From Rhizobium sp. NXC24 (lineage in GTDB: Bacteria; Pseudomonadota; Alphaproteobacteria; Rhizobiales; Rhizobiaceae): a stretch of 64,000 bases of DNA. The notes beneath the pieces are model-generated. The model saw only the letters and a program-made list of their open reading frames with translations, did not search any database and was not told where the DNA came from. The stretch is taken from positions 310,001 through 374,000 of the forward strand of contig NZ_CP024313.1 of the NCBI RefSeq assembly GCF_002944315.1. Direction: 5' to 3'. This document shows, in pieces, positions 2,672-33,244 of the stretch (the first letter of the stretch is position 1; the number at the start of each line of letters is the position of its first letter). The translations under genes and the position numbers were made by a program.

Positions 2672-2742
2672 CTACACGTAGGACAAGGGCTTCGGTTCTG
2701 CGATCAGTGGTTTGGGCTTTGAATTCGCCTCCCGAGCGACTT

Positions 2743-2781
2743 GGCTGTCGTCGAACAAGTTTTGACGGCAGCCCCTTTTTT
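2743..2781 (+). terminator. Rho-independent terminator after gdhA
   Basis: GGCTGTCGTC (2743-2752) pairs with GACGGCAGCC (2764-2773) with one G-T wobble and an 11-base loop, followed at once by CC and a run of six T. It lies about 70 bases past the gdhA stop and before the convergent dehydrogenase gene. Confidence 0.8.
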
Positions 2782-2831
2782 GCGAGAGGCCGGCATTAAC
2801 ACCGTCAAATCGCGGGAAGCCGTAAGCCGCG

Positions 2832-11540: not shown

Positions 11541-11681
11541 ATGGAAAGCTACGCGATTCGAGCCAATGTCGAATTCCATGCCTGCAGTCAAAAAACTTGG
11601 AGTGCCGAGCAGGTGGATATTGAAACTTCATTTTTTCTAATGCAGGTTGTGATTGCGACATGCGTCGGGAGGATTTCGTGA
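11541..11681 (+). CDS. Possible 46-residue protein coupled to the zinc-hook ATPase
   Basis: An ATG-started frame (MESYAIRANVEFHACSQ...) whose TGA stop overlaps the preferred GTG start of the large ATPase gene in a GTGA arrangement. That overlap suggests translational coupling and hence a real gene. It has no strong ribosome-binding site and no recognisable domain. It could equally be the tail of a truncated gene. Confidence 0.3.
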   Translation: MESYAIRANVEFHACSQKTWSAEQVDIETSFFLMQVVIATCVGRIS

Positions 11682-14600: not shown

Positions 14601-15496
14601 CCCGTGAGTACCGACTCCTGCATGCTCCGTACACGGCGCTGTTCAGCCCACCACCAAGCATATCTTTGCCTAATGGCTATAAGTCTTCTGTTCGGAAAAT
14701 GAAGCTTGAGATTATTGGACGCGCCGCGGCGCTTAGCGGTGGACGAGCAGCGGATGGGATGTTTCAATCATCTGGGTTCGACTCCGCCACGTCTAAAAAG
14801 ATCGTCTTGGCACAACACGCAGCCTATCGATGTGTCTCCTCAACTCTGGAGCCTGTTGCAAAGGTCGGTGACATTGTTCTTGTAAAGGATGCTGCCGAGC
14901 CATCCGCGAAATCGCTCGTCATTGCGATAAGCGGCGGCAAACTTTTGGCTCGTAGATTTGAGATTGCGGACAATCACAGCGACGTTGCGGTTTTGACAGC
15001 GCAGGCTATTAACCCTCGAAATATAGCGCCGCCAATAATTGCTAAAAAGGCTACTTTGACGCTCCACAAAGTGGTCGGTGTGCTTTATCAGCGCTTCAAC
15101 TGGGTTTTTCAAGGCAGCGATCACGAGGTTTCCGACTGTGGTGGGACATCGGCTATCGATCAGATTGCTGAGGAAACTATTGGATTGATCGAGGTGGTCG
15201 GACAAAGTGCCGAGCCTTTTGCGCTAGACAAGCAACATCTGATGATCTTGCCGGAACTGCAGTCGCTGGCATCTCTGTCGCAGCTCGACGGTCGCCCTGT
15301 CGTCGCCTGCGACGCCGATGATAATTATTACTTCAAAAGGCTGCGCTTTACTAATGACGCCTCAACATTGGTCTTGGAAAGTTTAGATAGCGGGGGGGAT
15401 CATGGTCCAATCGTGCTGGCTGCGCCGGGCTTCGAGGGAAATAGCCTTCGTAGAGTTTGGCCGGTAGCGGGAGTGCTTTTTGAACTTCCAAATTGA
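11678..15496 (+). CDS. Zinc-hook (Rad50/SMC-like) ATPase with C-terminal S24/LexA-like domain
   Basis: About 1272 residues if started at the GTG at 11678, which has GGGAGGA seven bases upstream; an ATG at 11660 is the alternative. Walker A is GPNGSGKSS near residue 124. A long helical region has a CPLCQRVL zinc hook near residue 454. Walker B, LFLFDDPQTTFD, is near residue 771 and the H-loop ATHDPH near 806. This order is that of Rad50/RecN/SMC-type ABC ATPases acting on DNA. The last ~200 residues (EPVAKVGDIVLVKD near 1065, then SGGKLLARRF) resemble an S24/LexA-like fold, but Thr and Arg sit where the Ser-Lys dyad would be. Base composition is less GC-rich than the neighbours, suggesting transfer. 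A role in defence or DNA damage response is inference. Confidence 0.7.
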   Translation: MSRLTKLEIERRLLSGLSLSWKDSAGKSNSIKLETPAARRLFQFLLRSDVRSPTELPNVFIDGLQGEISGEYDPADTHGEAGENLGLFSWKLKSILTEGFGGINVWAGAPFEYSFDRQSLLIEGPNGSGKSSLIGAILWTLSGERLRDQTKSLPHALQPVFGENQKPIGSWPPIATYPPTEIDLTRSPKVRVELVFENENGEIARVERRLENGDISVNADPLLYLPDVLIETSLLMPSRLPLLRLDEGAGQLTSAVQKLTGLDDLIALGALVSGLCNGGREYLSYRKKELALERVKFDRALVDCEASLKSIDVTIPGFAPSDTKRSESKAKAFGKELVAKAAELTEAVRDDLSPDLELSKLAVQTQVSAALEATRSELGKGLQSLASWNDLETVHGALDDETVTAIEVAIDIAIAATKDAVGLLARSQVDNRFRLKAMAARWHVDHAIGPIDDCPLCQRVLQSPELKKELEGFRALGELATRQFEDNMNLIAGELDRAVPSTFRRFGENFLASGPSFALARDFTKKYIDAPNVSEILHGFKRLAGEALKSIPQSNFDYAVEQPVEDAATPSVNRKIETLRRFIALAKWYRDNAADWLGWWNRNALPRPTTSPEAVETLGEYLGRLADALREAEPYRKAAVAMRDAWSAGLVVSEIEDEQERRKAVSNEIGPLKDLSSLAESVARDAINDLSGRIAATLDRIHLAENLKFKDTSLRKKDGLTVFGNLVSDYRIDATLVANTSWLRAVLWAFIFALREEALEQLGKDGLPLFLFDDPQTTFDPDHRHRWCQHVAAMQQAPRDMQVILATHDPHFVELIKIGGVTGREAMIASAHKDIGYLAIIEGDALARRWDDFKSHPTPLGGRDYIGKVREHVEGLLRIMLRAEDANVSAVGRGFTIGDARSKIEHLHAKGFAPWDRSEFKALTKSLHQNLTSIKHMEMAHHASGLALGIAEAEDVEKHWRKELRPAIEACSAISREYRLLHAPYTALFSPPPSISLPNGYKSSVRKMKLEIIGRAAALSGGRAADGMFQSSGFDSATSKKIVLAQHAAYRCVSSTLEPVAKVGDIVLVKDAAEPSAKSLVIAISGGKLLARRFEIADNHSDVAVLTAQAINPRNIAPPIIAKKATLTLHKVVGVLYQRFNWVFQGSDHEVSDCGGTSAIDQIAEETIGLIEVVGQSAEPFALDKQHLMILPELQSLASLSQLDGRPVVACDADDNYYFKRLRFTNDASTLVLESLDSGGDHGPIVLAAPGFEGNSLRRVWPVAGVLFELPN

Positions 15497-15724: not shown

Positions 15725-17323
15725 TTAGCCGACGGCGTCTGGTTTGAAGTTCCACGGCATGAGCAGCTCAATATCAGCGGCTGGCCAGCGATTTGCGATG
15801 CGGGTGAGCGTTTGAGATAGCCAGGCAAGCGGATCGACGTTGTTCATTTTTGCCGTCTGCAGAAGTGTGGCGATCGTCGCCCATGTCTCTCCGCCGCCCT
15901 CGCTGCCGGCAAAGAGACTATTCTTCCTCGTAATGGTTTGGGGTCGGATGGCACGCTCGACTATGTTGGAGTCGATTTCGACGTGACCGTCCGTCAAGAA
16001 GTGCTCCAGCGCCTCCCGGCGTGTCAGGGCGTAACGTATCGCCTCAGCAGTCTTGGACTTTCCGGAGACTTTGGAGAGTTCCTTCTCCCACAACTGGAAG
16101 AGATCGGCGACAATGCCAGCGGACGTCTCCTGACGGCGCCTCGCGCGCGTTTCGGCATCACTGCCGCGGATCTCGTCCTCGACCTTCCAAAGTTCCGTCA
16201 TGGCTGTGATCGACGCCGTTGCAGCGTCATTAATGCCGCCGACATGCAGCTCGTAGAACTTTCGGCGTAAATGTGCCCAGCATCCGGCAAGCTTGATCGT
16301 TTCATTGCTGCCGGACTTGGCGCGCTCTTTGATCATGCTGGTATAAGCCGAGTACCCATCCACTTGCAGGATGCCGCCAAACCCGGCGAGATGACGCGCG
16401 ACACACTTGCCACCCCTGCTGTCTTCGAAGCGATAGGCAACCATCGGCGGGCCAGACCCGCCAAACGGTCGGTCATCGCAAGCGTAGGCCCATAACCACG
16501 CCTTCATCGTTCTACCAGAGCCGGGAGCCAGCGTCGGCAAGGTCGTCTCGTCCGCAAATATCCTCTCACTGGCTTTAATGCGTTCCAAGATGTAATCCGC
16601 CAGGATCCGCAGCTCGAAGCCCAGATGCCCCATCCATTGGGCCATCAAAGAGCGGCTGAGAACCACGCTGTCGCGCAGATAGATCGCCTCCTGGCGGTAG
16701 AGCGGAAGACCATCGGCGTATTTCGACACGGCGATATAGGCCAGCAACCGTTCGCTCGGCAGCCCGCCTTCGATGATATGCGCGGGCGCCAAAGCCTGCA
16801 GCACGCCGTCACGTTCGCGGAACGCATATTTCGGGCGGCGTGTGACGATGACCCTGAACTTCGGCGGTATGACGTCGAGCCGCTCGGATCGGTCCTCGCC
16901 GATCAGAACCTTTTCCAAGCCTTGGCAGTCGTCGGGGATCTCCGGCTCGATCACTTCCTCGATGCGTTCGAGATGGGCGGCAAAACCTTTGCGTGGCCGC
17001 GCCTCCCTTTTTGGCCGCGCTTTGCCCACTTGGCCGAGCTCGCTGTCAATCGCCGCAAGGCCAGTCTCGACCTCCTCAAAAGCGAAGTCTATCTGCTCGT
17101 CGTTTATCGCCAGCCGCAGTCGCTCGGAGCGCGTACCGTTTTGGGCCCGCTGCAAAACCTTCAAGATCGCCGTCAAAGTGGTGATCCGCTCGTCGGCTTT
17201 CTGTTGGACAGCCCTCATTCGGGCAATTTCGGCGTCAGTCGCAGCCTTCTCTGCGTTCAAAGCGATGATCATCGCTTTCAGCGCATCGACGTCGTCAGGA
17301 AGGTCCGGACCGGGTAAAACCAT
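15725..17323 (-). CDS. tnpC: IS66 transposase TnpC
   Basis: 532 residues from the ATG at 17323. The N-terminal coiled-coil and zinc-finger-like part (LKAMIIALNAEKAATDAEIARM...) is followed by the DDE transposase core. The core shows ADETTLPTLAPG, QVDGYSAY and the acidic end in SNIVERAIRP, then the conserved NSLFAGSEGG. It catalyses strand transfer of the element. Full length for the family and with no frame damage. Confidence 0.95.
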   Translation of the reverse strand: MVLPGPDLPDDVDALKAMIIALNAEKAATDAEIARMRAVQQKADERITTLTAILKVLQRAQNGTRSERLRLAINDEQIDFAFEEVETGLAAIDSELGQVGKARPKREARPRKGFAAHLERIEEVIEPEIPDDCQGLEKVLIGEDRSERLDVIPPKFRVIVTRRPKYAFRERDGVLQALAPAHIIEGGLPSERLLAYIAVSKYADGLPLYRQEAIYLRDSVVLSRSLMAQWMGHLGFELRILADYILERIKASERIFADETTLPTLAPGSGRTMKAWLWAYACDDRPFGGSGPPMVAYRFEDSRGGKCVARHLAGFGGILQVDGYSAYTSMIKERAKSGSNETIKLAGCWAHLRRKFYELHVGGINDAATASITAMTELWKVEDEIRGSDAETRARRRQETSAGIVADLFQLWEKELSKVSGKSKTAEAIRYALTRREALEHFLTDGHVEIDSNIVERAIRPQTITRKNSLFAGSEGGGETWATIATLLQTAKMNNVDPLAWLSQTLTRIANRWPAADIELLMPWNFKPDAVG

Positions 17324-17398
17324 GCGGGCAATAGAGCATAAAATCCGCCGATTTCCCAACACTTACAGCAACATGATTCATCTTGCCGCACATCGTCA

Positions 17399-17743
17399 TC
17401 AGCCGATCGAAAGTGGCCGCCGCACCTTGGCGGGGCGAATCTTTTTCCAATCCATTCCGGCCAGAAGTGCCATTAATTGCGCATGGTCGAGACGGACGCG
17501 GGCAGCAGACGGGACAGGCCAGCAGAAGCCATTTTCTTCGATTATTTTGGCGTAAAGGCAGACCCCACTGCCGTCCCACCAAACAATGCGGATCCGGTCT
17601 GCGCGTTTCGAGCGGAATACATAAAGCGCACCGCTAAAGGGGTCGAGGCCGCCATCCCGCACCAGGGCCATCAACGACGCAGCGCCTTTGCGGAAGTCGA
17701 CGGGCTGACATGACACGTAAACAACAACACCCGAAGTGATCAT
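17399..17743 (-). CDS. tnpB: IS66 accessory protein TnpB
   Basis: 114 residues with the family signature VYVSCQPVDFRKGAASLMAL, then GALYVFRSKRADRIRIVWWDG and a C-terminal MDWKKIRP. TnpB is needed for IS66 transposition, but its biochemical role is unclear. The gene overlaps the tnpA stop by four bases and lies 75 bases upstream of tnpC, the usual IS66 layout. Confidence 0.93.
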   Translation of the reverse strand: MITSGVVVYVSCQPVDFRKGAASLMALVRDGGLDPFSGALYVFRSKRADRIRIVWWDGSGVCLYAKIIEENGFCWPVPSAARVRLDHAQLMALLAGMDWKKIRPAKVRRPLSIG

Positions 17744-19121: not shown

Positions 19122-19499
19122 TTGAAAGCGAAAGCTCAGCGCAATCCTATGGTGTTTAAATGCCAGCATTGCTACAATCTCAATCATACGGAATGGGGAC
19201 GCTGCACTGACGTGAAACCGCAAAACTCTCGCACCTTGTCCCCAAAGAAGACTCGCCGCAGTGCGATCGAGCTCGATCCGACATTCCGTCCATATCTCGC
19301 AGTGGCTATTGTTCGGTTCAGTGCGTTGCATCCAGGTACAGAAATCGAAATATCTCAGACGATCAGCCTGTTGGACGACGGCGCAGCTTCGGTCGATCTG
19401 TTGGTTCGAGAATTTCATCATTGTCTGTATCGGGAGAAAATTTATGCCGAGACACTTCCGCTTAGGCGTGCTCTCCTCGACGGTGTCCTCGGGCGATGA
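19122..19499 (+). CDS. hxsD: His-Xaa-Ser system protein HxsD
   Basis: Up to 125 residues from a TTG. The start is uncertain because AGGAG sits only about two bases from it, and internal starts would give a product nearer the roughly 100 residues expected. The family region is about residues 45-125 (IELDPTFRPYLAVAIVRF...), ending with the characteristic EFHHCLYREKIYAETLPLRR helix. The extra N-terminus has a CxxC (KCQHC). HxsD is a small partner protein always found with the two radical SAM maturases HxsB and HxsC; its molecular role is unknown. Its stop overlaps the hxsB start as ATGA. Confidence 0.75.
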   Translation: MKAKAQRNPMVFKCQHCYNLNHTEWGRCTDVKPQNSRTLSPKKTRRSAIELDPTFRPYLAVAIVRFSALHPGTEIEISQTISLLDDGAASVDLLVREFHHCLYREKIYAETLPLRRALLDGVLGR

Positions 19500-20902
19500 C
19501 CGTATTTCCCCTTAAATTCAGACCGTGCGGGGCCGGCTATCTTTTTGCGGATGATGCGGGCGGTTACTTCAAAGCCGATGTCCGCTTTCTCAATCGCTAT
19601 GCGACCGGAAAGCTAATGGCCGTGGATAGGGATTTTCTTGAAGCGAATGGTCATGCGTTCAATGAGATAGGCGACCCGGCCTATATGGGATTTGCCTACC
19701 GATGGGCCCAACGATTGCATCGTTCTCAAGAGCTGAATTACGTCATTCTGGTTCCGACCCTCCGTTGCAATTTGGCGTGTGCCTACTGTCAGGTGTCTCG
19801 GGTGAACGAGAGCACTTTAGGCTTTGATTGGACGGATGAGACGCTTGAGCGCGTTCTCCGATTTCTCGACGCCATGACTTCCGCGAGCGTCAAAATCGAG
19901 TTCCAGGGTGGCGAGCCACTGCTCCGATTAGACTTATTGAAGAAGGTTCGCGCTTTCGCTCGCCGCAAGTTCCAAGAAGTTTCCTTTACGGTATGCACCA
20001 ATTTGCAATCGGTCTCGGAAGAAGCTTGGGATTTTCTGGATGCCCCGGACGTCTTCGTGAGCACGTCACTCGACGGCGAACTCTCGACGCATGAGCGACA
20101 ACGAACCCCAAATGCCCACGATACGCAGCAATTTGTATCGAACCTCCGCTATGCCATCGAGCGCTTGGGTCAGGTAAAAGTCTCGGCTCTCCCGACGCTA
20201 GACATCAACAAGTTGCCGAGCGCTTCCGAGATCATTAATACGTTTGGTAGGTTCGGATTTCGGTCCATTTTCCTTCGGCCTGTCAATCATCAAGGTTTTG
20301 CTAGAAAAAGATTTCAGACCACCGGTCTCGAAGACAAATGGAGTGCTTATCACACCGATTTTATCGATGCGCTGATCGAGCACAATTGGACCGCCGCTCA
20401 GCCGGTCGAGGAGTTTTATTTCACTCACTGCCTGCGCCGGGTTCTGCATGGCGGCCACAATCAGCACGTCGACCTTCGTAATCCGAATATCCTCGGGCGA
20501 GACTACATCGTTATTGACTACGACGGCACCTTCTATCCGACGGACGAAGCCAGGATGGTCACGAGGGTCGGACAGGTCGATCTTAGCATTGGCGATCTAT
20601 GGAATGGTATCGACCAGTCGAAACTAGACGTACTGAACGAAGAATCTTCCAATTCATTCCATCCCGATTGCATTCATTGTCCGTACCAGGCCGCTTGCGG
20701 CGCAGACGTCGTTGACGATCTATCCCGTTACGGGCGCATCGATCTGCCGAAGGCCGACACAGCCTTCTGTCGCCGTCATACCGCAATCTTCGACAAGATC
20801 TTCGAGCTGCTCTATTCGGACGATGAGAAAGTCCAAAAGAGCCTCGCCGTGTGGGCCGGAATTCCAGAATTCGATCCGTCACTGGCGCCGGTACACACAT
20901 GA
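19496..20902 (+). CDS. hxsB: His-Xaa-Ser system radical SAM maturase HxsB
   Basis: 468 residues. The radical SAM cluster motif is CNLACAYC near residue 90, with EFQGGEPLLR (GGE motif) near 140. A SPASM-like C-terminal cysteine region CIHCPYQAACGAD near residue 400 probably binds auxiliary Fe-S clusters. This order matches HxsB. It should generate a 5'-deoxyadenosyl radical to modify the HxsA repeat peptide in the cytoplasm before export; the chemistry is not established for the family. It is coupled by four-base overlaps to hxsD before and hxsC after. Confidence 0.88.
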   Translation: MTVFPLKFRPCGAGYLFADDAGGYFKADVRFLNRYATGKLMAVDRDFLEANGHAFNEIGDPAYMGFAYRWAQRLHRSQELNYVILVPTLRCNLACAYCQVSRVNESTLGFDWTDETLERVLRFLDAMTSASVKIEFQGGEPLLRLDLLKKVRAFARRKFQEVSFTVCTNLQSVSEEAWDFLDAPDVFVSTSLDGELSTHERQRTPNAHDTQQFVSNLRYAIERLGQVKVSALPTLDINKLPSASEIINTFGRFGFRSIFLRPVNHQGFARKRFQTTGLEDKWSAYHTDFIDALIEHNWTAAQPVEEFYFTHCLRRVLHGGHNQHVDLRNPNILGRDYIVIDYDGTFYPTDEARMVTRVGQVDLSIGDLWNGIDQSKLDVLNEESSNSFHPDCIHCPYQAACGADVVDDLSRYGRIDLPKADTAFCRRHTAIFDKIFELLYSDDEKVQKSLAVWAGIPEFDPSLAPVHT

Positions 20903-21981
20903 TCGATCTGCGGCTCAAGATCGATGACGTTCCAATCGACAATCCAATTATCGTTCGCTTGCGCACGGACGGGGTGGATGGTGAATATGATGCACTCCTG
21001 ATCGACAGAGATCAGGAAAGTCAAACCTTCGATCTCGCAGGCTACTCGCTTCGCGTCCACTGCGGTGCCGAAACTGATCTCAATGGTGACGTGCTGCTTA
21101 TAGTTCCTGGGCGAAAGTCAGCGCATCGATTAGTGCGATCACGGTCGAGACACAATACCTTCCTGGTCACCGAGCAATGCGATCAGCTCTGCGTCATGTG
21201 CTCGCAGCCTCCAAAGAAACATCACGCCGACCTCTTCGACCAGTTCACAGTCGCTGCCATTTTAGCGCCGGAAAACGCTCGGATCACGATATCTGGCGGC
21301 GAACCGCTGCTGCACAAACGAAGACTGTTTCAATTTCTTCTGGCCGCCGCGAAAGCACGGTCGGATATCTCATTCCATGTTCTGACCAACGGCCAGTTTT
21401 TCGAGCCAGGCGACAGCACGATAATTGATGAGATCGGAAGAGATCGCGTCTTATGGGGCATTCCGCTGTATGCGCCTTGCGCCGAACTTCACGACAGCAT
21501 CGTTGGAAAGTCCGGTGCCTTTGACATGCTGTCATCGAACTTGGCGACGCTGATGAGGATGGGTGCGGTAGTCGAGCTTCGCACTGTTGTCCTTCAGCAG
21601 AACTGGGGCGCGTTGCCTGAGCTTGCGAGCTACGTCTCCACCAGGCTGCCGTTCATCGATGTCTGGGCAATCATGCAGCTAGAGAATATCGGCTACGGCA
21701 GAATGAACTGGGCGCATTCGTTCAAGGATACGTCGCTGGATTTCGGACAACTGCGCAGAGCCATCAACCTCGCGATGGGGCGCGGTATCCAAACTCTTCT
21801 TTATAATTTCCCCCTTTGTACGGTTCCTCCACAGTACCGGCATTTGGCGCCGGGCACGATTTCAGATTGGAAGAACAAATTTTTGGTAGAGTGCAGCGGA
21901 TGCTCGCTGCGCTCTACTTGTGGTGGATTTTTTGAATGGTATAAAGCTGATCAGGGGTTTGGGGGACTCTCACCACAATGA
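20899..21981 (+). CDS. hxsC: His-Xaa-Ser system radical SAM maturase HxsC
   Basis: 360 residues from the ATG that overlaps the hxsB stop. After ~90 residues of N-terminal domain comes the cluster motif CDQLCVMC, followed by SQPPKKHH and then ISGGEPLL. The cysteine-rich C-terminal end (CSGCSLRSTCGGFFEW) could ligate a further cluster. CxxxCxxC spacing and the position between hxsB and hxsA identify HxsC. The presence of two different radical SAM enzymes suggests two steps or a heteromeric maturase. The stop overlaps the hxsA start. Confidence 0.88.
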   Translation: MIDLRLKIDDVPIDNPIIVRLRTDGVDGEYDALLIDRDQESQTFDLAGYSLRVHCGAETDLNGDVLLIVPGRKSAHRLVRSRSRHNTFLVTEQCDQLCVMCSQPPKKHHADLFDQFTVAAILAPENARITISGGEPLLHKRRLFQFLLAAAKARSDISFHVLTNGQFFEPGDSTIIDEIGRDRVLWGIPLYAPCAELHDSIVGKSGAFDMLSSNLATLMRMGAVVELRTVVLQQNWGALPELASYVSTRLPFIDVWAIMQLENIGYGRMNWAHSFKDTSLDFGQLRRAINLAMGRGIQTLLYNFPLCTVPPQYRHLAPGTISDWKNKFLVECSGCSLRSTCGGFFEWYKADQGFGGLSPQ

Positions 21982-22604
21982 AAAAGCGCAAGATCTACCT
22001 GGTGCCGTCGTTAATCGCCGCCGGATTCATGCCGTCGAAAAGTGATGCAGCGCCGATCACCGGCATTACCGAAAAGAAGCCCGTAACCACCCTGTTCGAG
22101 CGGCTGCGGGTTAAACAGGTCTACACCCTTGCGGGCCATAGCTCGCATTCGAGCCATGCAAGTCATGCCAGTCACGCGAGCCACGCATCCTCAGCTGGAG
22201 GCGGCTACATCCCACGGGGCGATTATGACACCGCTTATCCATTGCCCGACCCGACACCGCAGTATTCGCCCAACCCAGGTCCCGTCATCAGAAGTTCCCC
22301 GACCACTCCCAACATACCTGCCACGACTTCAACTGGCGGCGCCTATTCGCCGCAGTCCTCCCCGACGAACGCGCAGCCACAGCCGCTGAAAACGCTGCCA
22401 GGCAACTCGGACAAATTTCGCCGCATCGTCATACAGGTCCAGACCGCTCTGATTGCCTTTGGCTATTTCGGCGGCCCGATAACAGGGCAGGTCGATGCCG
22501 CGACGAGGGGCGGACTTAATAAAATGCAGGATGCGTACGGGCTCAAAGTCACCGGCACCATCACTCCGCAGGTCCTGTCGGCCCTGGGAATCGCGACAAA
22601 CTAA
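21978..22604 (+). CDS. hxsA: His-Xaa-Ser repeat protein HxsA, putative modified secreted peptide
   Basis: 208 residues. The N-terminus MKKRKIYLVPSLIAAGFMPSKSDAAP looks like a signal sequence. Residues 54-71 are six consecutive His-x-Ser units (HSS twice, HAS four times). A Pro/Ser/Thr-rich linker follows. Residues ~140-208 form a peptidoglycan-binding_1 domain (VQTALIAFGYFGGPITG, then GLNKMQDAYGL). HxsA is the predicted substrate of HxsB and HxsC: a repeat segment modified by radical chemistry and displayed at the cell wall. Modification and function are inferred from the family architecture, not from any demonstrated product. Confidence 0.88.
   Translation: MKKRKIYLVPSLIAAGFMPSKSDAAPITGITEKKPVTTLFERLRVKQVYTLAGHSSHSSHASHASHASHASSAGGGYIPRGDYDTAYPLPDPTPQYSPNPGPVIRSSPTTPNIPATTSTGGAYSPQSSPTNAQPQPLKTLPGNSDKFRRIVIQVQTALIAFGYFGGPITGQVDAATRGGLNKMQDAYGLKVTGTITPQVLSALGIATN
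22137..22190 (+). repeat. His-Xaa-Ser codon repeat array in hxsA
   Basis: Six tandem 9-base units encode HSSHSSHASHASHASHAS. Codons vary between units (CAT/CAC, AGC/TCG/AGT/TCC), so the repeat is kept at the protein rather than the DNA level. This is the presumed site of maturase action. Confidence 0.85.
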
Positions 22605-22616
22605 GCCATCACGCAA

Positions 22617-23795
22617 ATGAAACGGCATCTCCTTTATACCGCTATGACGATTGTTTTGGCTGCTTCCGCTCCGGTGGGCGCAGCGACAGCCGCGGTTTCC
22701 TATCGCCATCTCTCCACGACGAATGGGACGACGATCCTCCTTGTCGAGGGCAGCTTCGAGACCGGCGATGATCCACAACGCGTCGCCTTGGAACTTACAG
22801 CGAGCCCGGCCAAATACATCGCATTTAATTCGGCGGGTGGCGATCGATCAATCGCGATGGCTTTCGGGAAAGCAATTCGCAAGACCGGCCTTCCAACGCT
22901 CCAGACCAAAGGCTCGCCTTGTCTCAACACCTGCCTTTTGGCATTTATGGGTGGCGCCAGTCGCTATGCCGAAGATGAGAGCGTCAGCATATCTGTAGAG
23001 ACGTTTGCCACGTCTGCGGAATCTGGGGGGCGTGTCGATCCCTCAGTTTCAGCCGCCATCAAAGACTACCTCAGCACGATGGGTGTCAGCGCTTCGCTTC
23101 TTGACGCAGCACTGTCGATGCAGCTTGGGCAATCGAAAGAATTGAACCTTGTAGATATGGCGGGTTATCAGCTGGTAACGGCTCAGCCCAGTGGTTCAGG
23201 CACCTGGACGGATATAGTGCAGGGCGCGCAGCCTACTGACCAAGCAGGGGCAGTGGAAGTGTTCAACGAGTTCCAACGGGTGTGGTCGGGCTCAAGTAGC
23301 GAGGCGGCCGCCTTCCTTCGCAACGTCTATGCCGACCGCCTCCAGTACTACGGAAAAGATCTTTCGCGAGAGGATGTACTTAAAGAGAAAAGTGCTTTCG
23401 TGGACCGATGGCCGACACGAATCTACGCAGCGCGGCCAGGTTCGGTTCATGCGCTCTGCGCAGACAGGTGTTCTGTCTTCGGCATTGTCGATTGGTACGC
23501 CTTCAGTGCAACCAGAAAAAAGGGAGCTTCTGGCGCAGTGAACTTCGCGCTGACTTGGGACCCGGTCGCTCGGAAAATAATCGGAGAAACGGGCAAGGTC
23601 ATCGAGACCGACAAAGCGGTCGCCATCCCCGATCGGATCATTCGCCGTTGGATTCTCGACGCTACCGCCTGCTCGACTGCGAACGCTGTCGACGCTGAAG
23701 TATGCAAATCGCGCTCGATCCTGGAGACCGATTTGAATAATTCTGGGTGGTGCAATCGGCAGGGATTGGGCTGGAGGCAGTGCGGCGGCCCATGA
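22617..23795 (+). CDS. Secreted ClpP/COG3904-like protein with C-terminal Cys-containing domain, hxs-linked
   Basis: 392 residues starting 12 bases after hxsA, so very likely in the same operon. A signal peptide (MKRHLLYTAMTIVLAASAPVGAATA) is followed by a region resembling periplasmic ClpP-like COG3904 proteins: LVEGSFETGDD, AFNSAGGDRSIAMAFGKAIR, and CLNTCLLAFMGGASR. In active relatives the cysteine pair brackets a serine (CxSxC); here it is CLNTC, so the catalytic serine appears to be missing. The second half has RPGSVHALCADRC and several further cysteines, suggesting disulphides. It may be a binding partner for modified HxsA in the periplasm; this is inference. Confidence 0.55.
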   Translation: MKRHLLYTAMTIVLAASAPVGAATAAVSYRHLSTTNGTTILLVEGSFETGDDPQRVALELTASPAKYIAFNSAGGDRSIAMAFGKAIRKTGLPTLQTKGSPCLNTCLLAFMGGASRYAEDESVSISVETFATSAESGGRVDPSVSAAIKDYLSTMGVSASLLDAALSMQLGQSKELNLVDMAGYQLVTAQPSGSGTWTDIVQGAQPTDQAGAVEVFNEFQRVWSGSSSEAAAFLRNVYADRLQYYGKDLSREDVLKEKSAFVDRWPTRIYAARPGSVHALCADRCSVFGIVDWYAFSATRKKGASGAVNFALTWDPVARKIIGETGKVIETDKAVAIPDRIIRRWILDATACSTANAVDAEVCKSRSILETDLNNSGWCNRQGLGWRQCGGP

Positions 23796-23799
23796 TCGA

Positions 23800-24555
23800 T
23801 TAGCGGCCCCCCTCGCGACGTGGAGTTTCGACTATCCGCATGTTGGGAACCGATTTCCGGGCAACATTGAGCACGGAACTGGAAGAAATTGTGCCAGAGG
23901 GTACCCATCCAATCGCGTCCGGGCCACCGCTGACGTGGGTCCAACCCGCTTCTTGCTCCATGACAGAGACAAGAGCGTTTTGACCAAGGCTACCGACGAC
24001 GATGTATTTGGGACTAGGTCCGTCTCTAAGTTCAAGAGGTACCCGCATGTAAGCGAATTTCGCAGCAGAGATCGGGCCGGCTGTTTTGGAAGGATCAACA
24101 GCGGCCACGGTGGTAGCCTGCGATTGCTCGATGGAGGCAATCAATCCATCGAAAACTTCGGGGTTTGGTTCTGAAGCGGTGCTCGTGATTGGCTCCGTGA
24201 TCGTAATGGCGGAACTCGTCGCGGTGCTTTGAGGCGCGGCCATGGGAGCAGACGGAGCCGTTTCCGAAACGGATGTTGCATTCCCAGTGCTGGAAGACGT
24301 GGGCGACAGCGAGTCTGCACTGGCAGCAGTTGCGGTTGCCACCGAAGTCTGAGGCGCAGGAAGCACTTTCTCCTGAGTGAGGGTAGGACTACTTACCGGC
24401 GCGGTCACGATCTGATTGCGTGAGGCAGTAGGTAACGACGCCGGGACCGGAGATACGGTTCCAGGCTTCGACGTTGCATTCGCCGCGAAGACAGCGACCC
24501 CGATCATTGTGAGCATTATCCAGAAGTCTCGGTATGGTCCCGCCACGCGCGCCAC
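23800..24555 (-). CDS. Membrane-anchored bacterial SH3-domain protein
   Basis: 251 residues: one N-terminal hydrophobic segment (FWIMLTMIGVAVFAANA), then about 140 residues rich in Ser, Thr, Ala and Pro. A bacterial SH3 domain lies near residues 165-230 (YMRVPLELRDGPSPKYIVV...ALVSVMEQEAGWTHVSG...GWVPSG). Such domains usually bind cell-wall peptides. It is the last gene of the vWA-PP2C-kinase operon (two bases after the kinase gene) and converges on the hxs operon with only four bases between. The wall-binding domain could be the outside sensor of the kinase. Confidence 0.7.
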   Translation of the reverse strand: MARVAGPYRDFWIMLTMIGVAVFAANATSKPGTVSPVPASLPTASRNQIVTAPVSSPTLTQEKVLPAPQTSVATATAASADSLSPTSSSTGNATSVSETAPSAPMAAPQSTATSSAITITEPITSTASEPNPEVFDGLIASIEQSQATTVAAVDPSKTAGPISAAKFAYMRVPLELRDGPSPKYIVVGSLGQNALVSVMEQEAGWTHVSGGPDAIGWVPSGTISSSSVLNVARKSVPNMRIVETPRREGGR

Positions 24556-24557
24556 CG

Positions 24558-26468
24558 TTACCCTATGTCCATTTGAACTTGCTTAAGCCGTACATACGCT
24601 TCAACTAATTGCGGGGGCGGGTTCCTTCGTAGGTCGGAGGCAGTATCCAGAAGTTCCTTGAGCTCATCCGGAGCACGCCTCAGCTCTCGTTCCAAGTCAG
24701 CCCTCTGACGCGCTATGTCCGTTTTGACCTCATTGATAGCCTGCGGATCGGTGGCAATATGACTATTGAATACAAATTTCTTCTCAACGGACGACGACCA
24801 ATTCGCAAGGGCGTCGGCTTTTTTCGGACCAATGCCAGGAACGGCCAAAACCGAGCGAGTCTTCACGTCCCACGCGCTGTCAAAACCAAACGACGAGAGC
24901 GTTACCGTCCTGCTCTGTCCAATCCCACCGATTTTTGCGCGGGAGATCAAGTGCCCCTGCATGTGGCTCCTGAATTGAAGGTCCCTTTTCTTCCGCTCGA
25001 GCTCGAGGAGCCGTTCGCGTTCCTGTTCCGGAAGTTTGGCATGAGCCGAGGCCAAGGACAGATAGTGGCTTTTTCGTTTCAGGAACACGGCAGGCCCGGC
25101 GTGCTCTTCCCAAATTTTCTTCTTCTCTTCCCATGCTGCAGTCGCCGCCTGCAGTTCGACCCGAAATTCTTCCGCAGGACGGCGGGCTCGGATCATCATT
25201 ATGATTGATGCAATAACCAGAGCGGTACCCCAGAAGCCATTCAACTGATTGGCAAGGAAAAAGCCTATCAGCAGTCCGGCAACCGACGCAAAAAGCGTCA
25301 GTTGCTTTCCATGTAATGCGGCTGCCGCCGCAGGACTGCGGGTAAGAGACGGAACCGCGATGATGCTTTCAGGGGCAGGCGGTTGGCTTGGTGGAGCGGG
25401 ACGGTTGATTAGAGCAATGAGGTCACCGATGTTCAGTGTGGAAACAGTGCTTGAAATCTTTGCGGCGAATAGGCTCCGGCCCATCGATTTCTCGAGGCGG
25501 CACCAGGGGCACGACGCGCCGCCCCGAAAGTACGCATGTGATTTGTCTGCAGAGCACTCCACCAGACCCTGCTCGAGCTTGCCGAGGATTTGGACCCACG
25601 ATGCCGCGTTGGGCCGACCGCCCGGACGATCACCATTCTTGCTGAAGGCTGACTCGAAGGCGTCAGAAACTTCATTGCCAAAGTCACTGAGCGCTGGTGT
25701 TAGCGGCGGGGGTTCCATGCGCGTCTCAGCCCTACGTGCGCTATAGGCGAAACGGTGGTCGCCGATGGCGGTGGGTATGTCTATGTCTCCAAGACCCAGA
25801 TGCTTGCCGGCAAACGGATGTCTCCCAAGAAAAAGCAGCTGAAAGATGAGGACGGCCAGACCGAAGTTGTCGTGGTTTGCCGTTCGAACCATTTTTTCGA
25901 AGTCCGCACCTCTGAGCTCAGGTGGCGTATAATCCGGCACGCCTACCGTGCAGCGATAGACCTCTGGCCCCTTATTGAACTGAAAGGAGTCACTGTCGAT
26001 GAGAGTTACCATAGCCTGGTTTGAAACGAGGATGCCGGAGTGGTTCACGTCGCCGACTACGCAGCCTGTATTGTGGATTGCAGCAAAAGCGTTCGCGAGA
26101 TTGAACGCACTGCGCACCAGGAACCGGGCGTCGGCAGAAGGAAATTCCGTCCGCCTGCTGCCCGGCCCATAGAGCTCGTGGATGTTCTTAAAACCTGCGA
26201 CCTTCTTCATGGAAAAACCCATGAACGTTCCGTTCTTGTCGCTTACAGTCTCGATTGGGAAGGCGACTATGTCGGTTGTCTTGTGGAGCGCCGCCGACGT
26301 CATGGCAAAGATTTTTGCTTTCCTCTCGAAGGCTTTGCCGGAATTGTAGATCTTCACCGCCAAATCGCCCGCCTCGTGGATGTGGTAGACCGTGCCCTCG
26401 CCACCCTTTCCCAGCATCATACCAAGCGTGAGCTTCTTTCCATCCGATCCGAATACGGTAGTGCTCAT
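24558..26468 (-). CDS. Ser/Thr protein kinase-like protein with membrane segments and helix-hairpin-helix
   Basis: 636 residues. The kinase domain occupies 1-300: glycine loop GKGGEGTVYHI, lysine in AVKIY, catalytic-loop aspartate in VVGDVNHSGILV, metal site as IDSDSFQF in place of DFG, and GVPDYTPPEL. A CPWC motif follows near residue 330. Two adjacent hydrophobic segments lie near 395-430, then a charged helical region, then a helix-hairpin-helix near residue 565 (VPGIGPKKADALANW). This architecture matches the kinase of vWA/PP2C/kinase triads described with tellurium-resistance-like (TerY) systems. It overlaps the phosphatase stop by four bases. Regulation by the co-encoded phosphatase is expected. 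Confidence 0.8.
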   Translation of the reverse strand: MSTTVFGSDGKKLTLGMMLGKGGEGTVYHIHEAGDLAVKIYNSGKAFERKAKIFAMTSAALHKTTDIVAFPIETVSDKNGTFMGFSMKKVAGFKNIHELYGPGSRRTEFPSADARFLVRSAFNLANAFAAIHNTGCVVGDVNHSGILVSNQAMVTLIDSDSFQFNKGPEVYRCTVGVPDYTPPELRGADFEKMVRTANHDNFGLAVLIFQLLFLGRHPFAGKHLGLGDIDIPTAIGDHRFAYSARRAETRMEPPPLTPALSDFGNEVSDAFESAFSKNGDRPGGRPNAASWVQILGKLEQGLVECSADKSHAYFRGGASCPWCRLEKSMGRSLFAAKISSTVSTLNIGDLIALINRPAPPSQPPAPESIIAVPSLTRSPAAAAALHGKQLTLFASVAGLLIGFFLANQLNGFWGTALVIASIIMMIRARRPAEEFRVELQAATAAWEEKKKIWEEHAGPAVFLKRKSHYLSLASAHAKLPEQERERLLELERKKRDLQFRSHMQGHLISRAKIGGIGQSRTVTLSSFGFDSAWDVKTRSVLAVPGIGPKKADALANWSSSVEKKFVFNSHIATDPQAINEVKTDIARQRADLERELRRAPDELKELLDTASDLRRNPPPQLVEAYVRLKQVQMDIG

Positions 26469-27235
26469 TTGCGCACACCGAGTACTAGCGTCTTGTCGTC
26501 ATCTGTCCGTTCGCAAATGGAAGGGCTTTCAAGATAGTCTCGGAGGGCTATCGACAGAGAAACGTTCCTGCCGGCTTCCTCCGAAAAAGCTAGCGGCGTC
26601 ACTATCCGATTGAAGAATGGCTCATGGGCCGAACGATCTACGCTATTGAGGACTAGGCGCTCAATGCCGTCGGAGAATACTGCAAATCGATCGACACGAC
26701 GGTCATTTCGAATAAAAGTCAGACGCGGATAAGGATCATCGGTGATGAAGCTGGTTGTCGATGCATATTCGCCTTGATACGGCCAAGACGGCACATCCCA
26801 TGCGTCGTCTCCTTCGTAGCGTACGACGGCTGCGCCGTCGCCGATGTGGAAGATCACAGTGCCGTTTTCAGACATGAGAGCCGCAACGGTTGTGGCCGCG
26901 AAATCGCGACGCTGTGTTCCAGATCGACTAGCCTTTGCGCTGATGTATTCGCGGATATCATCTATCCAGTCCCAAACCATTTCTTCACGAAGCTGGGACA
27001 GGGAGTGACTTGCAAGATATCCACGGATGAGCCGAAGCAGACCAATGCAGACTGATTTTGAACCAATCTCCGCCAGTTTTGCGCTTCCCGCACCATCTGA
27101 AACGATCACTGTCATGACCGTTTCATCGAGGCTGGCTACAGCCTCACTGAGCGCAAAATCCTGACATGGCAAACCTGTCTTCACATGAGAGGTGCCACGC
27201 GCACGGGCCGCGGCCCAACGCCAGCCATCGGTCAT
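26465..27235 (-). CDS. PP2C-family Ser/Thr phosphatase
   Basis: 256 residues from the ATG at 27235, which overlaps the vWA stop as ATGA. Metal-binding and family motifs are [48 protein letters not shown] and the terminal DDKTLVLG. It should dephosphorylate Ser/Thr residues, probably on the partner kinase or its targets. The variant beginning ([14 protein letters not shown]) is typical of the PP2C form found in vWA-PP2C-kinase triads. Confidence 0.88.
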
Positions 27236-27912
27236 GCGATTGAGGCCCATCCGTCTGGTGTTGCAGGATTGGAGAGAGGAACGGCGTCGCCGGGATTGGA
27301 TTGCGAGACGGAGCTTAGAGAGCTGGAAAGCCACTGGAACAGATCGCGGAACCTGAGTTCCTTCAGAGCCAAAGGCTGGCGCACGCAGATCTGGGAAAGC
27401 GTTTCGAAATTCGCGCCGTCGACGCCGACGGCAAAAAAGCTGAAGGCCTTTTCAGCTTCACCAGCCTTGATCTGGGCGGCCGCATTTTGCCACGTGTCTG
27501 TCGGAGCTCCGTCCGTAATCAGGAAAACCCACGGGCGATAGTACGAGATTCCGTTTTGGCGATAGGAGCTCTTCCGGTCGCGCAGGAGCCGAAGGCCTTC
27601 CTCGATTGCGTGGCCCATTGGCGTATCTCCCTGCGCTGCTAGCTCGGGAACGATCCAATTATGCACGCTTGTAAAGTCGTTCACAATGCTGACTGGGCCG
27701 AAGGAGACGAGGCCTATCTCAACGCGCTTGGATGCGAGAGAGTCCGCATAGAGCTCATCCTTAAACTGAACAAGACCTTCATTGAGTTCTCTCAGTGGGC
27801 GTCCTCGCATTGAACCTGAGACGTCCAGCAACAGGAGGCAGGGGCAGCGCGGTTCGGGATTGTCCACGAACTCGGCGCCATCAAAGGGGATTTGCTCAAA
27901 TGGATTCGGCAT
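27232..27912 (-). CDS. vWA-domain protein (TerY-like)
   Basis: 226 residues from the ATG at 27912, preceded by GAGGAGAA. The von Willebrand factor A fold has a full MIDAS: DVSGSM near residue 30, threonine in [12 protein letters not shown] near 95, and aspartate in LITDGAPTD near 130. TerY-like proteins bind divalent metal and act as adaptors in stress and phosphorylation systems. It is the first gene of a coupled vWA-PP2C-kinase-SH3 operon. Confidence 0.88.
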
Positions 27913-29431: not shown

Positions 29432-30853
29432 ATGTCCTGTTTGATCACTATGTCGCAGAAAGAGTTGCATCGCCTCGAAGTCATCCAGAAGATCCGTGAC
29501 GAACGCCTGAGCGTTGTCCAGGCTGCCGAACTGCTCGACCTCAGTCGAAGTCAGGTGCATCGGCTGCTGCAGGCTTATGACCTGGATGGTCCAGCCGGGC
29601 TCGTTTCGAAGAAGCGATCTCAACCGAGCAACCGGCGTCACAGCGAGGAATTTCGCAATGCGGCGCTGGATCTGATCCGCGAACGCTATCTGGATTTCGG
29701 CCCGACGCTGGCGCGTGAGAAGCTGATCGAGCTGCACCGGATCTCTGTCGCCAAGGAGACGCTGCGGCAATGGATGACCGAGGCTGGTATCTGGGTCTCA
29801 CGCAGAGAACGCAAGAAACGGGTTTTCCAGCCACGCGGTCGACGTGATTGCTTTGGCGAACTGGTGCAGATCGATGGCTCGCATCACTGGTGGTTCGAGA
29901 ACCGTGGGCCCAAATGTGCCCTGCTCGTCTATATCGATGACGCGACCGGCAAGCTGCTACATCTACGGTTTGCCGGATCGGAGAACACATTCGACTATCT
30001 GCACGCGACCAAGGCCTATCTGCAGCAATGGGGCAAACCGCTGGCCTTCTACAGCGACAAGCACGGCGTCTTTCGTTCGACCCATGCGTCGGAGAAGGAC
30101 CGGACGAGCGGCCTGACACAATTCGGCCGGGCGCTCTATGAGCTGAACATCGACATCATCTGTGCCAACACCCCGCAGGCCAAGGGCCGGGTGGAACGTG
30201 CCAACCAGACATTGCAGGATCGGCTGGTCAAGGAGATGCGGCTTCGCGGCATTGACACGATCGAGGAAGCCAACGCCTATGCACCTGAGTTCATTACGGA
30301 TTTCAACGCGCGTTTCGGCAAACAGCCGCGCAATCCGAAGGACATGCACCGGCCGTTGGCCGATCACGAGAACCTTGATGGCGCCATGTGCCGCAAGGAA
30401 GTTCGCACGCTGTCGCAGGCTTTGACGCTGCGCTACGACAAGGTGCTGTTCATTCTCGATCCGACCGACGTTTCCAGACCCTTGGCCGGCCAAAAGGTGA
30501 TTGTCTGCGATTATCCGGACGGTCGTCTCGAGATCATGCACGAGAGTTTTGCCCTACCCTACAGAACCTTTGACAAGCTGCGGTCGGTCCATCGGCCGGA
30601 AGTCGTCGAGAACAAGCGTCTGGACGACATGCTGTCGATCGTCGCCGAGATGCAGGCTGGACGAGAACAGCAACGGAGCAAGAGCGGCCCTCGCCGCACC
30701 GGGCAGACGGATCATATGTTCGGCATTCGGGACGGCAGCACGGCGAACGGCTATCAGAAGCGTGGCCGCAAGCCGAGGACAGATTACATGAACGATCCCG
30801 CGGTGATTGCCCGGCGAGAGAAAGCGTTATTGAGGCAACCAGCGGCGGAATAA
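29432..30853 (+). CDS. DDE transposase, ISNCY (IS1202/IS481-like) family
   Basis: 473 residues. An N-terminal helix-turn-helix (VVQAAELLDLSRSQVHRLL) is followed by an integrase core with acidic residues in QIDGSHHWWF, FYSDKHGVF and KGRVERANQTLQDRL, the last supplying the glutamate. The C-terminal basic region (KRGRKPRTDYMND) probably aids DNA binding. The frame is intact, so the element may be functional. The start could be a few codons later, at MSQKELHRLE. Confidence 0.9.
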   Translation: MSCLITMSQKELHRLEVIQKIRDERLSVVQAAELLDLSRSQVHRLLQAYDLDGPAGLVSKKRSQPSNRRHSEEFRNAALDLIRERYLDFGPTLAREKLIELHRISVAKETLRQWMTEAGIWVSRRERKKRVFQPRGRRDCFGELVQIDGSHHWWFENRGPKCALLVYIDDATGKLLHLRFAGSENTFDYLHATKAYLQQWGKPLAFYSDKHGVFRSTHASEKDRTSGLTQFGRALYELNIDIICANTPQAKGRVERANQTLQDRLVKEMRLRGIDTIEEANAYAPEFITDFNARFGKQPRNPKDMHRPLADHENLDGAMCRKEVRTLSQALTLRYDKVLFILDPTDVSRPLAGQKVIVCDYPDGRLEIMHESFALPYRTFDKLRSVHRPEVVENKRLDDMLSIVAEMQAGREQQRSKSGPRRTGQTDHMFGIRDGSTANGYQKRGRKPRTDYMNDPAVIARREKALLRQPAAE

Positions 30854-31951: not shown

Positions 31952-33244
31952 CTACGGTTGACGGTGTACTTCGTCCACCAGGGTCAGAGTCTCGAGGCGA
32001 TCGAGAAGCTGCTTTGCTTTCTTTTCTCCGAGCAATTCGGGCGCCAATGTCGGCCAATGCTCCAGCGCACGATTGACTGTCGCCACGACCTCGCGGGTGA
32101 TCAGCTTCTCGTCTAGGCGAAGAAAACTTGCGACCCTCTCAAAGCGATGAAGGTTCACGTTTTCGAAGCTGTGGGTTTTGACGAACCTCAACGCCATAGT
32201 GTCGGATGGAATGTAAAGTACGGTCGGGACGATATCGTAGGCAGGCGACAATCGGATTTCGCCGGGTGCCGGAAAGCAAAAAGACCAGTTCTTAAGATGG
32301 TTGTCGCCATTGCCCAAAAGCACGTCTGCAACAACCCTGCGGATGGATTCCAATATGTCATCGCGATGATCGGTACTGAAGCGGCGCACCATGTTGATGA
32401 TGGTTTCAGTCGTCGCCATCGTGTATTTGCGATCGCCTATCGCTCCCAGAATTTGGGCTGCGTCTTCGATGTGAATGCGACGATCATCGTCGGCACGGTC
32501 GAAGCGATCGACGACGAGAACGCGTTTTCCGTGGGCCAAGAGTTCCGCTGGAACGCCGCTGATGACATCGCTGGAGACAAGCCGGCAATTTGCGGTTCGC
32601 ACGCCAATCATTTTTGCCATATGCATGGCCGCGTATTCAGCCTCGGGCAAACCCGGGAATCGCTCGCTTGCGACCTTGATGATGCAACGGCCGGTGTTAC
32701 CGCGACCGGGAACCGTCAGTCGCTCGCCCTCGACGTTGGCTGTGAACTTGAGCTGGACACCTGCGAGCGAGAATTTGACCGCGCCGTCAGGCAGCGCGAC
32801 ATCCACGCCATGTACCTTTTCGATGGTGATCGGGCCGGCTGACGCTGGGATCGCTGTTTCCGGTACGACGAGAATTGCGCCGGGGAGATCGCCACCCAGG
32901 CGGCTCAGAACGTCGAATTCGTCGTGATCGCCCGGCCCCATTTCGTTCAACACGAGATCCCTAAGGGCGCCCTCCGGAAGCAGCCCTGAAAACCATGGTG
33001 GCAATGTGCCGTGAAGCCCAATTTTGTCACCGCGCCGCGCCAGATGATTGCGTGTGCCCTCGTCATCGTCAGGATCGAACCAACCCAGGCTCAGAATTGG
33101 CCGCTTTGGATCCCGTAGGAATGTTTCCGCAACGACAAACGCGACTGCGCCGTCACTGTCGCGCGTCAGGGTGCCTACCCTAACCTTCCCTTGTGTCTGA
33201 TCCAGAAGATGGACGCCGAGGATCGCCGAAGATTTCGCCATCAC
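31952..33244 (-). CDS. hipA: HipA-family serine/threonine kinase toxin
   Basis: 430 residues. Order of motifs: N-terminal HipA_N region with WFSGLLPEGALRD near 85, SLAGVQLKFTA near 160 (ATP-binding loop), the kinase catalytic motif GNGDNHLKNWSF near 310, and LSPAYDIVPT (metal-binding Asp) near 330. HipA kinases phosphorylate targets such as glutamyl-tRNA synthetase and cause growth arrest or persistence. All key residues are present, so it may be active. Its start overlaps the hipB stop as ATGA. Confidence 0.92.
   Translation of the reverse strand: MMAKSSAILGVHLLDQTQGKVRVGTLTRDSDGAVAFVVAETFLRDPKRPILSLGWFDPDDDEGTRNHLARRGDKIGLHGTLPPWFSGLLPEGALRDLVLNEMGPGDHDEFDVLSRLGGDLPGAILVVPETAIPASAGPITIEKVHGVDVALPDGAVKFSLAGVQLKFTANVEGERLTVPGRGNTGRCIIKVASERFPGLPEAEYAAMHMAKMIGVRTANCRLVSSDVISGVPAELLAHGKRVLVVDRFDRADDDRRIHIEDAAQILGAIGDRKYTMATTETIINMVRRFSTDHRDDILESIRRVVADVLLGNGDNHLKNWSFCFPAPGEIRLSPAYDIVPTVLYIPSDTMALRFVKTHSFENVNLHRFERVASFLRLDEKLITREVVATVNRALEHWPTLAPELLGEKKAKQLLDRLETLTLVDEVHRQP

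Follow-up and report, generated by a model that had tools for sequence, protein, structure and literature searches.

Recurrent linkage of His-Xaa-Ser radical SAM genes to a vWA-phosphatase-kinase triad in Rhizobiaceae, and a hybrid cluster in Rhizobium sp. NXC24

A cluster at positions 19122-27912 of a 64,000-nucleotide stretch of Rhizobium sp. NXC24 DNA (the window: assembly GCF_002944315.1, contig NZ_CP024313.1, positions 310,001-374,000) combines the hxs genes of the His-Xaa-Ser radical SAM system with a triad of genes for a vWA protein, a PP2C phosphatase and a Ser/Thr kinase, and with a gene for an SH3-domain protein. The linkage of hxs genes and triad within Rhizobiaceae is near certain, and the window cluster itself is a hybrid of two related cluster types. 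We tentatively consider it a real possibility that the cluster consists of an hxs peptide-modification core and an exchangeable downstream signalling cassette, with the triad as one of several outputs. The host genome comprises 7.3 Mb in four contigs, of which contig C3 carries the window, and the genes of the cluster are as follows.

19122..19499, + strand: hxsD-like gene, longest start at 19122 and conserved part from about 19236; assigned by position, profile and a weak hhalign match
19496..20902, + strand: hxsB, radical SAM/SPASM maturase (TIGR03978, 445.5 bits; cut-off 370)
20899..21981, + strand: hxsC, radical SAM maturase (TIGR03977, 324.6 bits; cut-off 267.9), with an ATGA overlap start
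21978..22604, + strand: hxsA, precursor (TIGR03979, 220.8 bits, cut-off 121.65; PG_binding_1, 46.3 bits), with six H-x-S repeats
22617..23795, + strand: secreted ClpP-like protein, probably catalytically dead; no family model, assessed by comparison with a paralogue and homologues
23800..24555, - strand: membrane-anchored SH3-domain protein, a chimera of two hxs-linked SH3 families (SH3_3, 23.4 bits; cut-off 27), with a transmembrane segment at residues 11-29
24558..26468, - strand: YegI-like Ser/Thr kinase (Pkinase, 40.7 bits; 32% identity to Escherichia coli YegI)
26465..27235, - strand: PphC-like PP2C phosphatase (PP2C_2, 139.9 bits; 36% identity to PphC), with an ATGA overlap start at 27235
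27232..27912, - strand: YegL-like vWA protein (VWA, 41.0 bits; 62% identity to YegL); the open reading frame is extendable to 27966

On the + strand hxsD, hxsB, hxsC, hxsA and the ClpP-like gene follow one another, with 4-base overlaps at hxsD/hxsB, hxsB/hxsC and hxsC/hxsA and 12 bases between hxsA and the ClpP-like gene. The - strand operon converges on it: vWA and PP2C genes, and PP2C and kinase genes, overlap by 4 bases, the SH3 gene begins 2 bases past the kinase gene, and exactly four bases (23796-23799) separate the stop codons of the two operons. A sequence-only reading of the window had described just this layout, two facing operons four bases apart, and the coordinates and overlaps bear it out; the start of the vWA gene at ATG 27912, as given there, is also judged likely. 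The same reading had proposed hxs genes and triad as one unit. Because the operons converge, the two are not one transcript in the window.

The linkage is most evident when many genomes are compared. In a survey of 148 genomes of the genus (thresholds of E 1e-40 for HxsB and E 1e-20 for the kinase), HxsB was found in 32 and the kinase in 13, and in 12 of these 13 the kinase gene lies on the hxsB contig, 3.2-5.1 kb apart, the exception being genome G811. Eight of the twelve linked genomes carry a near-identical window type (>=93% kinase identity), while the other four (G699, G705, G733 and G813) have both genes on one strand. Several HxsB matches per genome also occur, with three in G684, two in G714 and two, one of them partial, in G699. 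Among 297 genomes of the family HxsB is present in 10, the kinase in 6 and both in three (G000, G559 and G613, the last with only the C-terminal half of the kinase), always close together. The hypergeometric p values are 1.7e-8 for the genus (6.5e-4 with the eight near-identical genomes collapsed) and 5.3e-4 for the family (7.9e-3 without the window genome); these assume independent genomes, and the co-occurrence counts overstate independence because the genomes are related.

Among plasmid records, HxsB matched 409 and the kinase 74, with 60 of each listed. Of the 60 listed kinase matches, 37 come from Rhizobium, Sinorhizobium or Agrobacterium, each with hxsB at a distance of 1.7-5.1 kb; in 23 of the 37, namely 22 near-identical Agrobacterium plasmids and one of Rhizobium sp. 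Y9, the match covers the C-terminal half of the kinase only. The remaining 23 of the 60 listed kinase records are absent among the 60 of 409 hxsB matches listed, and the 7 kb fetched for two of them (L080 and L081) contain no hxs gene. Klebsiella accounts for 311 of the 409 HxsB-matching records. In one of these, a Klebsiella pneumoniae plasmid (L078), hxsDBCA adjoins the genes of the lasso peptide klebsidin with an IS110 element between them, and no triad gene is annotated within 7 kb.

Of 385 genomes sampled from the class, 6 have HxsB over the cut-off and 17 the kinase (E 1e-20), and the window genome alone has both; the link, as sampled, is therefore confined to Rhizobiaceae. Universal linkage of hxs and kinase is ruled out by this class sample together with the MauG-type loci described below. 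The count of neighbours within 10 kb that the sequence-only reading had proposed does not refute the link within Rhizobiaceae. Its idea of a single unit is supported by linkage far above chance in this family and by six same-strand clusters, but the hxs loci read outside Rhizobiaceae lack the triad.

The architectures of all fetched loci were scored with custom profiles seeded from members of these loci. Six loci (class I: L054, L067, L068, L069, L070 and L089) have the order U-hxsDBCA-vWA-PP2C-kinase-SH3 on one strand, where U is a secreted protein of about 380 residues encoded upstream of hxsD. A broken copy of this arrangement is found in Rhizobium sp. T136 (L071), a decayed cluster in which hxsC and the PP2C gene are split and the kinase is shortened, with an IS66 element nearby. 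Where same-strand clusters are annotated, neighbouring genes overlap by 4 bases or are separated by short gaps throughout. Seven further loci (class Ih: L020, which shares its contig with L055, L072, L073, L083, L084, L085 and L086) have U-hxsDBCA followed by the membrane-HhH part of the kinase and SH3; they are without kinase domain, PP2C and vWA, and the HhH part is split in L086. The shorter combination U-hxsDBCA-SH3 (class Is) is seen in L014 and L082, and L087 has U, hxsD, hxsB, hxsC and just a piece of hxsA. Protein U, present in L014, L020, L054, L067-L073, L082-L087 and L089 and absent from the window, is conserved (all pairs among nine compared at E <=4.5e-66); it matches no Pfam or NCBIfam model, and a relationship to the ClpP-like protein was rejected at E 0.01.

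Other loci possess a ClpP-like gene. In class II (L005-L011, L074 and L088, with L059 a repeat of L009) hxsDBCA-ClpP faces a gene fusing DUF4236 and SH3, both of which are named by Pfam in L005, L009 and L011. In Rhizobium tumorigenes L074, a YhhA/YhhB cyclophane peptide pair (1888-4303) is located about 4 kb upstream of hxs. Class W, in which hxsDBCA-ClpP faces SH3-kinase-PP2C-vWA, comprises the window, L001-L004 and L077. The facing and the same-strand arrangements are both represented among benign symbionts, in R. tropici CIAT 899 and Sinorhizobium meliloti Rm41 between them. L034 has ClpP without SH3, L012 and L019 stop at contig ends, and hxs genes stand alone in, among others, L013, L015, L018, L031, L061, L062, L064, L065, L075, L076 and L078. 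The 34 named loci divide into 4 of class W, 7 of class II, 1 of class Ih, 1 of class Is, 14 of class M (hxsDBCA-TIGR03982-MauG) and 7 others; the full triad is found in four of these 34, all near-identical to each other. After the usual class M pair, a second gene fusing TIGR03982-like and MauG-like parts occurs in L023, L024, L025, L026, L027, L029 and L030.

Phylogenetic trees suggest that the window cluster was assembled from two of these types. In the HxsB tree (39 sequences, nine of them rows outside the groups compared), the window and R. tropici CIAT 899 fall among six of the seven class II rows (support 100/100). The remaining class II row, L074, is placed elsewhere, hence cassettes have moved more than once or were lost. 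The class I rows need one change on this tree and have modest support (76/71; 83% of bootstrap trees). In the kinase tree, the eight hxs-linked kinases, including those of the window and class I, form one clade apart from six that are not linked to hxs (97/97; 98% of bootstrap trees), and the vWA tree agrees with weaker support (81/89). At the DNA level, the window is 88% identical to the class II locus L011 over 19126-22602, a match that ends at the first base of the hxsA stop codon with nothing matching beyond; the ClpP-like proteins of the two loci are merely 42% identical. As far as sequences can tell, the window cluster is thus a hybrid, with the hxs core of the ClpP/DUF4236-SH3 lineage and a kinase of the hxs-linked clade.

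The SH3 protein has a corresponding mixed pattern. By hydrophobicity it possesses one N-terminal helix (residues 11-29), and its anchor (residues 1-30) matches all nine class I and Ih SH3 proteins, with 0 of 500 shuffles as good in each case, while against the N-terminal parts of seven class II DUF4236-SH3 proteins 88-213 of 500 shuffles were as good. Its SH3 domain, conversely, scores 188-217 against class II and 63-111 against class I and Ih. The SH3 protein of R. tropici CIAT 899 shows the same pattern. Judged from these comparisons, the protein is a chimera, with an anchor of the kinase-cluster type and an SH3 domain of the ClpP-cluster type, as would be expected if the anchor has to suit the kinase and the SH3 domain has to suit the hxs/ClpP side.

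These observations bear on the explanation that the linkage is one of passengers: hxs and triad would be accessory modules with no relation to each other, carried on the same Rhizobiaceae replicons and inherited jointly by descent. Many of the loci are indeed on plasmids, the window cluster is flanked by IS66 transposase genes and an ISNCY-family transposase (15725-17743 and 29432-30853), and the relatedness of the genomes inflates the counts as described above. However, the joined genes of the same-strand clusters overlap by 4 bases or stand close together, two different hxs lineages have the junction, each time with one and the same kinase clade, the SH3 protein has been rebuilt as a chimera, and in G705 and G813 the pair lies deep inside a contig of >2 Mb. 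We consider mere passenger linkage improbable.

The hxs part of the window conforms to the His-Xaa-Ser system (TIGR03977, TIGR03978 and TIGR03979), with HxsA, HxsB and HxsC each above the NCBIfam curated cut-off and the gene order D-B-C-A. This HxsB is the only one over the cut-off in the whole genome. The start of hxsC was taken at the overlap (20899) instead of the longer open reading frame start at 20851, and R. tropici CIAT 899 is annotated likewise. HxsD of the window matches no NCBIfam model with either start and gives a weak hhalign match to the HxsD of Klebsiella and Paraburkholderia (probability 20%, E 0.0011); its assignment is based on position and on a profile partly seeded with the window HxsD itself. 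The genes hxsA-D are named in PMC8446631, and passages of PMC9062424, following Haft and Basu, describe HxsB and HxsC as putative maturases of the H-x-S motif. Besides its repeats HxsA has a C-terminal peptidoglycan-binding domain, and its N-terminus is basic and moderately hydrophobic, below the hydrophobicity threshold; the binding domain and the N-terminus together suggest that HxsA may be exported.

The window differs from the described system in having the kinase triad and the SH3 protein in place of the TIGR03982 and MauG-like TIGR03981 partners, neither of which is found at the window locus and which are not part of the core Hxs definition. These partners are relevant to a further explanation, according to which the hxs core makes a histidine-rich, wall-bound element with metal or redox activity, and it would be matured or read out by alternative means, namely the triad, the ClpP-like protein or, in other lineages, MauG-like di-haem proteins. 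The histidine-rich repeats, the TIGR03982 and MauG-like genes at 14 of the 34 named loci, and the hypothesis, put forward in passages of PMC11090510, that the TerY-P triad is a metal-sensing switch are all consistent with it. The window cluster, on the other hand, contains no metal or redox gene that we could find, and no MauG-like TIGR03981 protein over the cut-off occurs in the genome (best 51.8 bits against 340). This explanation seems unlikely to hold.

The ClpP-like protein has an N-terminal helix by hydrophobicity. Neither Pfam nor NCBIfam has a model that matches it, and the one hit of a PDB profile search with its alignment, at E 1.7, was regarded as noise. A paralogue elsewhere in the same genome (27% identity over 132 residues) has a Ser flanked by two Cys and a His further downstream, positions that we take to be catalytic; in the window protein Asn replaces the Ser, and the His is missing. 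Among 13 aligned homologues, two have the Ser and none the His. The protein has probably lost its catalytic residues, and on this account an active protease is considered unlikely. The secreted ClpP-like gene of the sequence-only reading is accordingly present in the hxs operon, but its product is probably not catalytic.

The triad is homologous to YegL-PphC-YegI of E. coli, with which it shares the order vWA-PP2C-kinase. VWA, PP2C_2 and Pkinase are all above the Pfam cut-offs, whereas HHH (16.9 bits; cut-off 24) and SH3_3 are under theirs, and PP2C_2 has its single occurrence in the entire genome within this cluster. The identities given above extend over 220 residues for YegL, 253 aligned columns for PphC and 647 for YegI, the last covering the whole length of the kinase including the membrane and HhH regions. 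The kinase consists of a kinase domain, a CPWC motif, a two-helix membrane hairpin (hydrophobic segments 389-407 and 408-426, with an extra peak at 202-220 inside the kinase domain) and a C-terminal HhH region. In E. coli K-12, pphC and yegI have yegJ between them; yegD, yegJ and mdtA are annotated as neighbours, and the stretch read contains no hxs or SH3 gene. YegI is described, in passages of PMC13232886, as a membrane-bound kinase that is dephosphorylated by PphC.

Adjacent vWA, PP2C and Ser/Thr kinase genes are also characteristic of the TerY-P triad, for which passages of PMC7699616 and PMC11090510 report a role in defence. The window kinase is fused to a membrane hairpin and HhH region, in contrast to the zinc ribbon or OB fold that a passage of PMC11090510 gives for TerY-P; no such C-terminal zinc ribbon or OB fold is seen in it, and the HHH model itself is below its cut-off. 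A serious rival reading, if a somewhat unlikely one, is that the cluster is an anti-phage or inter-bacterial conflict system, in which the triad is a TerY-P(-like) phosphorylation switch and the modified wall-bound HxsA is an envelope sensor or effector. Beyond the anti-phage reports for such triads in the two sources just cited, strong PADLOC matches lie beside several hxs-kinase or hxs-HhH loci: GajA and GajB (Gabija) at L068, ThsA and ThsB (Thoeris) at L073, MkoC (Mokosh-like) at L072 and Drt2 at L054. The window vWA and PP2C proteins, however, have no PADLOC hit at E 0.01 and those of the kinase are weak (best 28.8 bits), the presence of TerY-P models in the library being unconfirmed, and accessory replicons are rich in defence genes anyway. 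Matches of >200 bits occur at four of seven kinase or HhH loci against two of seven MauG-type control loci with hand-picked neighbours, and as this is no clear difference the defence link is a lead only.

Two other genes of the window are of note. One (11660-15496) encodes an SMC/RecF-like ATPase of 1278 residues (SMC_N, 41.7 bits), which the PADLOC models of LmuB and mad3 match weakly, at 54 and 42 bits, and the other (31952-33244) is a HipA-like toxin gene (HipA_C, 159.4 bits).

The exchangeable-cassette reading draws on the linkage, the same-strand clusters, the single kinase clade, the exchange of cassettes at the hxsA stop codon, the chimeric SH3 protein and the seven kinase-less loci that keep the membrane-HhH part and SH3. 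From these parts we infer a possible course of modification, export, contact and signalling. In the cytoplasm HxsB and HxsC, aided by HxsD, would act on HxsA and modify its H-x-S repeats; HxsA would then be exported and bind peptidoglycan. The SH3 protein, with its N-terminal helix in the inner membrane and its SH3 domain outside, might meet the wall, HxsA or a partner of HxsA, which in the window may be the ClpP-like protein. The anchor of the SH3 protein may act together with the membrane hairpin of the YegI-type kinase, letting conditions outside determine how active the kinase is inside, while the PphC-type phosphatase would reverse the signal and the YegL-type vWA protein may bind a peptide or a metal-dependent partner. 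Envelope sensing of this kind is plausible in that it fits the predicted topology.

Several points weigh against this reading. Many hxs loci have neither the triad nor an SH3 partner, and kinase domain, PP2C and vWA are absent from the seven hxs-keeping loci of class Ih, hence these parts can be dispensed with or replaced. Genomes of the window type carry near-identical clusters and the same-strand hxsB is compatible with one origin, which leaves few independent joinings, perhaps two or three. The convergence of the operons in the window counts on the same side, and the proposed contacts, transcript and phosphorylation are predictions drawn from sequence.

No published description joining Hxs with the triad was found in the literature searched, which covers few subscription journals. 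Among the literature found, the nearest published idea seems to be that of vWA-centred conflict systems (PMC7159879). According to the passages of that paper, some of these systems include a radical SAM domain thought to modify a peptide and others have kinase-PP2C-vWA neighbours; they are based on MoxR or GAP1, and neither the Hxs proteins nor the combination seen in the window is named in these passages.

It is conceivable, if somewhat unlikely, that the cluster forms a membrane-spanning relay. In it, the wall-bound protein, once modified by the radical SAM enzymes, would sense conditions outside, the SH3 protein would serve as a modular receptor, and lineages would differ in the output they use inside. 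The swapped outputs may be the kinase-phosphatase-vWA triad, the DUF4236 protein or the kinase-less membrane-HhH protein, and the envelope may be watched for phage attack or damage. If such a relay exists, Hxs and YegI/PphC/YegL would be two halves of one pathway. The recurrent and rebuilt linkage in root-associated bacteria lets two poorly understood systems be tested through each other, with the natural swaps, where one hxs core is combined with differing downstream cassettes, as ready-made controls.

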